Of a stretch of 34,935 nt of DNA, positions 24,452 to 27,020 are shown in pieces. The stretch covers positions 92,981 through 127,915 of the forward strand of contig JAIPJT010000001.1 of assembly GCA_021733985.1 (NCBI GenBank), read 5' to 3'. The translations under genes and the position numbers were made by a program. Source of the DNA: Victivallales bacterium (GTDB taxonomy: Bacteria; Verrucomicrobiota; Lentisphaeria; Victivallales; GWF2-38-69). Under the pieces are notes generated by a model, which was given only the letters and a program-made list of their open reading frames with translations, ran no database searches and was not told the origin of the DNA. The stretch's first letter is position 1, and each line of letters opens with the position of its first letter.

Positions 24452-25114
24452 TTATATACTGCTTGCATCAATTAACTTATCCTCAACAATTTTCTGCCAT
24501 TTTTTCAGTTCTTCATCAGTCAGGTCACCTGGTATTTCAATCGGTTTACCTAATACAAGTTTTACTTTTGCACCTGGCTTTGCTATCTGAAAATTATCCC
24601 AGGTCTTTGTTTGCCAGTATTTTGAAGCATTAATAGCCACAGGAAGAATACTGACACCAGTTCTGGAAGCAAGAATAACCGGACCCTTACTCATTTTATA
24701 CTTAGGCCCTCTTGGTCCATCGGGAGTGATAGAAAGAACTGCACCCTTTTTCAGCACCTCCTCACATTTCTTAAGAGCTGACGCTCCTCTTTTAAATGTC
24801 GATCCCCTAATACTTCTCACTCCGAAACGGCTAATCAAATCAACTACATACTGGCCGTCCCTTGAAGGACTTATCAGGGCATAGGTCCTTTTCCTGTATT
24901 TTTTGGGAAACATGGCAGGAAAATACAATAAGCGATTATGCCAGGTAACAGTTATAAAAGGTTTCCCTCTGTCGTTTTGCTCAAATGCATTATCAATATC
25001 CACTATTTCAGTCCTGATTAAAAAAGTTTTGGAAAACTTTAAAATCAACGCCGCAAAAAAATAAATCCATGAAGGTAGTTTTTTAATTTTTTTAAAAGGT
25101 TCAAATATTTTCAT
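24452..25114 (-). CDS. DUF374-type lysophospholipid/lipid A acyltransferase-like protein
   Basis: 220 residues. N-terminal hydrophobic anchor (about 14-34), then an acyltransferase fold of the DUF374 type. Visible features are TWHNRL (His59), SPSRDGQYV (82-90), SIRGSTFKRG and TPDGPRGP (130-137). The family is linked to acylation of lipid A or glycerolipid precursors at the inner membrane in Gram-negative bacteria. The start codon overlaps the epimerase stop (TAATG), so translation is coupled and the two genes probably work in one envelope lipid or sugar pathway. The acyl donor and acceptor are unknown. Confidence 0.82.
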   Translation of the reverse strand: MKIFEPFKKIKKLPSWIYFFAALILKFSKTFLIRTEIVDIDNAFEQNDRGKPFITVTWHNRLLYFPAMFPKKYRKRTYALISPSRDGQYVVDLISRFGVRSIRGSTFKRGASALKKCEEVLKKGAVLSITPDGPRGPKYKMSKGPVILASRTGVSILPVAINASKYWQTKTWDNFQIAKPGAKVKLVLGKPIEIPGDLTDEELKKWQKIVEDKLIDASSI

Positions 25115-26076
25115 TATTCTGTTTCTTGTATATGTTGATTAACATCATTTATAATATCGTCCAATTTCAGCATAGGCTCCCAGTTAATAGCTTTTCTGAT
25201 TTTTTCAATATCAGGATGTCTTCTCTTCATGTCTTCAAAACCGGGGCTGTAGGCCTCATCATATGAAATTTTTTCTATAGTGGAAGAGCTGTTTAATTTT
25301 CTGATTATAAAAAGAGCTAACTCTTTTATACTGATCTCATAATCATTGCCTATATTAAATATATCATTTTTTAAATCCGATTGTCCAAGTATTTTCAGTG
25401 CTCTAACTGTATCATAAACATGGCAGAAACATCTGCTTTGTTCTCCGGTACCGTAAACCTGTAAAGGTTTGTTCACTATAGCATTTTTAACAAACCTCGG
25501 TACAACCATTCCATATTTCCCTGTCTGTCTGGGGCCTACTGTATTGAACAGCCTGACTACAGTAACAGGTATTCCATACTCTTCAGCAAAAGCCATACAG
25601 TAGAATTCATCTAAAAGCTTACTGCATGCGTAAGACCATCTTGAATGTTTTGGCGGCCCTATAAGTAAATCGTCCTCTTCTGAAAATTTATTCATTTCAG
25701 ATTTACCGTAAACTTCACTGGTTGAGGTCAGAATTACTTTTGTTCTTTTAATTTTAGCAGCATTGAGGACCCGCTCAGTTCCGTGAACATTTGTAATTAT
25801 AGTTTGAGCAGGATCTTTTACCACGAGTTCGACTCCAACGGCCGCTGCTAAATGAAAAACAATATCCGAGTGAGAAATAATATAGTTCAGCTCGGGTAAA
25901 TCTATTATATCACCTTTTATAAACTCAAACTTCGGCTTATCTTTTATTTTTTCTATATTTTTAATAGAACCTGTAGATAAGTTATCTATAACTTTAACTT
26001 CATAACCGTTTTCAATTAATGACTCAGCCAGGTGGCTTCCAATAAAACCGGCTCCGCCGGTAATAACTGCACGCAT
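25114..26076 (-). CDS. NAD-dependent nucleotide-sugar epimerase/dehydratase
   Basis: Extended short-chain dehydrogenase of 320 residues. GGAGFIG (7-13) binds NAD, TSTSEVYG (117-124) supplies the catalytic Ser/Thr, and YACSK (149-153) has Tyr149 and Lys153. The block PRQTGKYGMVVPRFVKNA (near 183-200) followed by YGTGEQSRCFCHVYD is shared by UDP-glucose 4-epimerase-like and UDP-glucuronate-processing enzymes. The exact sugar cannot be assigned. The first 13 residues are the nucleotide fold itself, so the start is secure. It is the first gene of a coupled pair with the acyltransferase, which points to envelope polysaccharide or glycolipid synthesis. Confidence 0.87.
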   Translation of the reverse strand: MRAVITGGAGFIGSHLAESLIENGYEVKVIDNLSTGSIKNIEKIKDKPKFEFIKGDIIDLPELNYIISHSDIVFHLAAAVGVELVVKDPAQTIITNVHGTERVLNAAKIKRTKVILTSTSEVYGKSEMNKFSEEDDLLIGPPKHSRWSYACSKLLDEFYCMAFAEEYGIPVTVVRLFNTVGPRQTGKYGMVVPRFVKNAIVNKPLQVYGTGEQSRCFCHVYDTVRALKILGQSDLKNDIFNIGNDYEISIKELALFIIRKLNSSSTIEKISYDEAYSPGFEDMKRRHPDIEKIRKAINWEPMLKLDDIINDVNQHIQETE

Positions 26077-26738
26077 AAACTACCTTCTAAAATTTTGTTG
26101 TACCAGGGATAATTCAGTGACTGCAATAAAGCAGACATCCAATAGAAGCTGGAAGAAAAAGTTTCCTACTCTACAGCCTAATTTCTGCGTTTTTTTTGTT
26201 TTTCCGAAAAGCCTCATACATCCTTATGCATCACTCAATGCCGTTGAATTTAGGCAAAATTATTGATTTTGCCGCGTTCACTCCACCACGAATTCTGTAT
26301 TCTGTGGAGGGAATCAATCCTTCTGTGTCGGCCATAGTACAGCAACTTCTGTACGACGGCTGATGATTCCGAAAGCATAATCCTTAATTCAATGACATTG
26401 ATGCATCACTTAAAAAAAACAAAATTTAAAACCTTATGCATATTCAGCAGAGTTAGACCCTTTTTGTGTAACATCTAATCAATCAGCAACTGCCAATAAA
26501 ATAAATTAAAATTATTGGTTAATTAAAATAGCATGAGGTAAATAAAATTCATTTATTTAAATAAAAATTTACTATTTTTATTAAAAAGAAATATGCTATT
26601 TATAAATTTAGTGTTAATTTATTAACTATATAAAGTTTACAGCTAAAAACTAAACCGGAGACACTAAACAAGTTACCTAATTTATTAAAGCTTTACGTAA
26701 CTACTGTAATAACAAGTATTATCTAAAAAGATACACCT
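26077..26738. other. 662-base gap before ptsH
   Basis: From 26077 to about 26200 nothing was recognised. At 26226-26406 lies the structured palindromic element listed separately. From 26411 to 26738 the DNA is extremely AT-rich and should contain the ptsH promoter. A TATTAT about 20 bases before the ptsH ATG, with a poor TTACGT 18 bases upstream of it, is the nearest candidate. Confidence 0.6.
26226..26406. repeat. Structured palindromic element, possible foldback repeat or ncRNA
   Basis: The ends pair: ATGCAT (26226-26231) with ATGCAT (26401-26406), and CAATGCCGTTGAATT (26236-26250) with 26386-26400 at 13 of 15 positions, leaving a 4-base bulge. Inside are GGCAAAAT/ATTTTGCC (26253-26273), CTCCAC/GTGGAG with GAAT/ATTC (26281-26309), and a compound stem: GGAATCA/TGATTCC (26310-26316, 26364-26370), TCGGCC/GGCTGA (26328-26333, 26358-26363) and GTACAG/CTGTAC (26337-26354). 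All stems nest without conflict into a multibranched fold. It looks richer in G+C than its flanks. An imperfect direct repeat, TTCCGAAA(A)GC...ATCCTTA, is at 26202-26226 and 26367-26386. The minus strand also has one open frame through most of it. Confidence 0.6.
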
Positions 26739-27020
26739 ATGTCTAAATCCGCCACAATAGAAATAATTTTAAAAAATAAATTGGGACTGCATGCCAGGCC
26801 TGCATCAAATTTTGTAAAAAAAGCTTCTGAGTTCGAATCAGAAATCACAATAGAAAAAGAAGGAGAAACTGTAAACGGTAAGAGCCTAATCGAACTTCTT
26901 ATGCTTGCTGCAGAATATAATACAAAACTTAAAATAACCGCAAAAGGCCCGGACGCCTATCAGGCAATAGAAGCTATAGAAACGCTTATAAAAAATGACA
27001 AAGGTTTTAATAAACAATAG
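26739..27020 (+). CDS. ptsH: HPr phosphocarrier protein
   Basis: Carries phosphate from enzyme I to sugar-specific PTS enzymes or, in bacteria without sugar permeases, to regulatory proteins. 93 residues, normal for HPr. The active-site His18 is in GLHARPAS. Ser49 in VNGKSLIELL is at the place of the regulatory serine that HPr kinase/phosphorylase modifies, so carbon-regulation by HPr kinase is possible. No EII permease is in the window. Shine-Dalgarno is weak. ptsI follows 39 bases later on the same strand. Confidence 0.96.
   Translation: MSKSATIEIILKNKLGLHARPASNFVKKASEFESEITIEKEGETVNGKSLIELLMLAAEYNTKLKITAKGPDAYQAIEAIETLIKNDKGFNKQ

Follow-up and report, generated by a model that had tools for sequence, protein, structure and literature searches.

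The stretch of DNA analyzed here (the window, 34,935 nucleotides from a Victivallales bacterium) corresponds to C31:92981-127915 of its own genome (G000). It contains a gap between a divergently oriented epimerase gene on the minus strand (25114-26076, PF16363/PF01370) and ptsH on the plus strand (26739-27020, PF00381). Promoter and terminator scans of this gap showed nothing beyond the background expectation. The gap holds a 165-bp non-coding element without a transposase gene, at 26236-26400 on the plus strand in the family-consensus orientation, which we assign to subfamily A of a probable MITE family and whose borders rest on 29 aligned copies and on the flanking 10-bp repeat. An initial annotation had described inverted ends and nested hairpins at 26202-26410; these are real and beyond chance, and the borders, which were shifted, are corrected here.

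Architecture of the element

The element is bounded by 18-bp terminal inverted repeats, CAATGCCGTTGAATTTAG on the left (26236-26253, plus strand) and CTTAATTCAATGACATTG on the right (26383-26400, minus strand, where it reads CAATGTCATTGAATTAAG), both of which are common to a second subfamily (B), to elements of a sister genus and to IS4-family elements. Immediately outside lie two perfectly matching 10-bp direct repeats, ATGCATCACT, at 26226-26235 and 26401-26410, which we designate the left and right copies of a target-site duplication on the basis of direct reading and of the 10-bp repeats found at other copies. The motif ATGCAT, formerly assigned to the inverted end, is in fact a piece of these direct repeats, and it seemed inverted only because it is self-complementary.

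Between the ends, the fold prediction places three hairpins on the plus strand: hairpin 1 (GGCAAAATTATTGATTTTGCC, 26253-26273), which is conserved in the copies, and hairpins 2 (CTCCACCACGAATTCTGTATTCTGTGGAG, 26281-26309) and 3 (GGAATCA...TGATTCC, 26310-26370), both of which are also backed by the alignment of the copies. Inside hairpin 3, one hairpin segment (about 26321-26360) occurs in some copies but not in others, and a GGAACC...GGTTCC segment, present in most copies, is absent directly before hairpin 2 in the window copy. These predicted hairpins make up the body of the MITE.

The block was rightly noted to be rich in G+C, since the element reaches 42%, above the 36% of the window and the 22% of the downstream DNA. 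Two further features ascribed to it did not hold. The pair TTCCGAAAGC...ATCCTTA, read as an imperfect direct repeat, combines sequence from the flank with the element's right end, and an equally good alignment arose for 47 of 500 shuffled flanks. The minus-strand open frame of about 50 codons is no longer than 42 codons when counted from an ATG, and indels between copies would break any frame.

Copies in the genome and their target sites

The suggestion that the block might be a non-autonomous, MITE-like element present in many copies could be followed in the source genome itself. A whole-genome search with the block recovered at least 113 segments matching subfamily A, corresponding to at least about 40 related elements on many contigs and on both strands. 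At least 21 places match subfamily B; these copy numbers are lower bounds, given that the best 40 of 152 and the best 40 of 93 first-look candidates were scored. The end motif alone occurs 106 times in G000 at no more than one mismatch, compared with a single occurrence for the reversed control. Subfamily A elements range from 123 to about 250 bp, varying by the gain or loss of whole hairpin segments, and any two of them agree at 76-99% of their shared columns (median 87%). Subfamily B, which resembles subfamily A in its ends only, is about 155 bp long and mostly 95-99% identical to its reference copy. A large number of its copies sit at the ends of contigs, a placement to be expected of a recent repeat that interrupts assembly, and subfamily B thus accounts for many of the contig breaks in the source assembly. 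By a rough ORF-based count, 31 of the 33 copies bounded by terminal repeats are intergenic. No copy of the element was found in the phage and plasmid collections.

When ends were paired by the quality of the terminal repeats alone, 10-bp direct repeats were perfect at 11 and near-perfect at 17 of 29 copies, and the same 29 copies showed no perfect repeat of 4-9 or 11-13 bp. With refined ends, for which the direct repeat served as a tie-breaker, the counts were 14 perfect and 21 near-perfect among 33 copies, compared with a mean of 0.7 near-perfect repeats for re-paired flanks; about a third of the copies have no good 10-bp repeat. The preferred target is AT-rich and roughly palindromic, with A at position 1, T at 3, A at 8 and T at 10. 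An empty site was also found: the joined flanks of the copy at C31:22433 line up unbroken with a C45 paralogue, identical at 162 of 169 positions, in which the 10-bp target is present once. For the copy at C17:12427, an uninterrupted relative exists at C57, with diverged target bases.

The MITE copy at C31:22433-22610 (L075:2934-3111) is embedded in a copy of the transposase gene of another IS, the uninterrupted paralogue of which is the one in C45 (L117:1172-1340). Separately, the flank class of C31:22433 and the copies at C60:13147, C63:2047, C68:6578 and C47:8269 occupy similar places of another repeat (...ACTGCATACCAGTCATGCGACGGTACTTGAATTGC...).

Folding of the element was assessed against shuffled sequence. 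In agreement with the earlier statement that such pairing is unlikely by chance, the originally delimited stretch of 209 nt has a folding energy of -63.6 kcal/mol (z = -5.0, with none of 200 shuffles as stable), and the excess stability that the initial annotation had set as a check is found for the element as well (z = -4.6, for a folded segment with its frame shifted by 2 bases). The corresponding values are z = -7.4 for a full-length copy on C59 and z = -5.1 for subfamily B. This stability, z = -4.6 to -7.4 across copies, is what an RNA with its fold under selection, whether a structured non-coding RNA or a cis-acting regulator of ptsH or of the epimerase gene, would be expected to display, and MITE transcripts in other systems do form stable stem-loops (PMC10969869). 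Nevertheless, a structured RNA of unknown class, which had been put forward as the second possibility, is not supported, because the copies lack compensatory base changes: among 23 aligned copies, a single cell was changed on both sides of a pair, compared with 5.5 when the 3′ letters were shuffled, and the covariation score fell below the shuffle mean and below most individual shuffles. RNAalifold returned no covariation bonus on the aligned copies, and a comparison with Rfam gave no family at its gathering score. Moreover, the copies sit beside unrelated genes in both orientations, and entire hairpin segments are gained or lost among them. We thus regard an RNA under selection as very unlikely. 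The stable pairing is explained by the construction of the element from palindromes, with no demonstrable selection on an RNA, and annotators should avoid labeling the block as an RNA that regulates ptsH.

IS4-family elements with the same ends

Using an end-pattern search, we found two transposase-encoding insertion sequences bounded by these 18-bp ends. One is a 1712-bp IS in G014, a genome of the same order, which encodes an IS4-family transposase whose N-terminal frame is apparently disrupted, and whose flanks match at 7 of 10 positions. The other is a 1469-bp IS4-family IS with CAATGTCGTTGAATTAAG ends, located on a contig listed as viral (IMGVR_UViG_2883713342_000004:1689-3157; L210/L213), with an open transposase frame across most of its length and a perfect 10-bp duplication, ACTGGTGCAT. 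Apart from this IS, most matches to the end pattern on viral contigs had no second end. Both transposases exceed the cut-off of the NCBIfam IS4-family transposase model, and both fit the IS4 family in their D-D-E spacing (75-77/108-109) and YREK signature, thereby displaying the DDE triad and the Y(2)R(3)E(6)K motif described for subgroup IS4 of the IS4 family (De Palmenaer et al. 2008, PMC2266710). The MITE ends (CAATGCCGTTGAATTTAG) likewise fit the consensus of that subgroup, -AATR--------WTW----, and the 10-bp repeats fall within its range of 10-13 bp (PMC2266710); the window element differs from the subgroup in being a 165-bp derivative without transposase, and not an IS. Beyond the 18-bp ends, the MITE and the two IS have no evident sequence in common.

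Several known elements can be set beside this family. MIC231 elements are non-autonomous with IS4-family ends, as is the MITE described here, and unlike it they carry genes and have other ends. The window MITE, compared with MIC231, is short and non-coding. The mobilization of MIC231 mobile insertion cassettes by IS231, itself of the IS4 family, is cited in PMC6542083. ISPa1635, a related IS4-like element of Pseudomonas plasmids, has CAATGTCATCAA... ends, a perfect 10-bp duplication and a transposase that is about 28% identical; it differs in being autonomous (1636 bp) and in the inner half of its end. Bacterial MITEs such as QMITE2 of Coxiella burnetii (PMC10969869) are likewise short and mostly intergenic, with terminal inverted repeats, direct repeats and a stable stem-loop fold, whereas the end sequence and the interior of the window family are its own.

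In the source assembly (96% complete, 71 contigs), we found no intact transposase of this IS4 type; the sole trace of it lies at C47:178-303, where about 40 residues match. The DDE_Tnp_1 genes of the same genome (on C45, C14 and C47) were considered as partners and rejected, as they have no matching ends. Since all that the assembly retains of such a transposase gene is a fragment, the family looks orphaned, and it is probably either orphaned in fact or separated from a partner missing from the assembly.

Taken together, the dispersed copies with conserved ends, the 10-bp duplications, the empty paralogous site and the IS4-family elements with the same ends bear out the MITE-like reading of the initial annotation, and they point with high confidence to an IS4-family MITE mobilized in trans by an IS4-family transposase that recognizes the same 18-bp ends. 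IS4-family elements move by cut-and-paste transposition, and from this knowledge of the family we infer a similar route for the MITE. An IS4-family element with the same ends would supply the transposase, which would bind the terminal repeats, excise the element and paste it at a new site via breaks staggered by 10 bp, and gap repair at the insertion would then produce the 10-bp direct repeat. Judging from the mere fragment of a transposase gene in the assembly, the family may now be largely immobile in the source strain. That the MITE instead belongs to another DDE family and matches the IS4-family ends by convergence, as might be argued from ends of only 18 bp, from the unrelated interiors of MITE and IS and from an assembly without an intact partner, is highly improbable, given that the ends match exactly within the observed variation, that the duplication length is identical, and that these ends occur in only five of 198 genomes of the class, yet the search led to an IS4-family element.

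As far as the open literature shows, where we found no paper with these end sequences, this is a previously undescribed but otherwise ordinary MITE family with clear borders and an IS4 parent family.

Shared ends around different interiors

A search of related genomes, which had been proposed as a test of the element, recovered the same ends, placed around other interiors in two genomes. In G002, of the same family and another genus, elements with these ends and with perfect or near-perfect 10-bp duplications (L120, L121, L122, L129, L131) have a different interior, made of two inverted GTAG-tagged hairpins, that is, a REP dimer (REPIN). The REP hairpin of G002 is not confined to such ends: G002, G000 and G001 also carry it elsewhere. 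In G000 it is present only at other places, and the window element has no GTAG REP dimer. In G147, of the same class and another family, a 102-bp element (L183:1501-1602) has the same ends, a 9/10 duplication and a GC-rich hairpin unlike the others. In G001, at C59:15174-15897, two REP hairpins flank a Y1_Tnp frame (C59:15494-15706), and this frame with its bracketing REPs is likely a REPtron as described in PMC3733652. REP dimers nested in longer palindromic repeats have been reported in A. variabilis (GTAG-15) and others (PMC3733652), which provides a precedent for the sister-genus elements. What sets the sister-genus elements apart from those composites is their outer palindrome, an IS4-type terminal repeat with a 10-bp target duplication, and the window copy has no GTAG REP.

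The palindromic build of the window element, the presence of Y1_Tnp genes and GTAG-type REPs in the lineage, and the REP dimer lodged within the same ends in the sister genus raise the question of whether the block itself belongs to the palindromic repeats of REP/REPIN type, short hairpins tagged GTAG (or CGTC) that a Y1 (RAYT) transposase mobilizes. We consider this scarcely credible: the window element contains no GTAG-tagged hairpin, its 18-bp terminal repeats and 10-bp target duplications are indicative of a DDE transposase, and an enzyme of that kind is encoded by the IS4-family elements that these same ends delimit.

The sole unusual aspect is that common ends surround unrelated hairpin interiors, namely those of subfamilies A and B, the REP dimer of the sister genus and the GC-rich hairpin of the more distant genome of the same class. 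For now, this is sufficiently explained if abundant palindromes were captured by chance between IS ends. We think it unlikely that the IS4-type ends serve as a common chassis for unrelated hairpin-rich interiors, with a hairpin interior being needed or favored; if they did, the hairpins might shield the element after excision, keep transcription from entering it, or permit exchange of interiors with the RAYT/REP system. The sister-genus composites, with a REP dimer inside IS4-type ends, are a natural setting in which to study the combination of two unrelated transposition systems, and they are the part most worth following.
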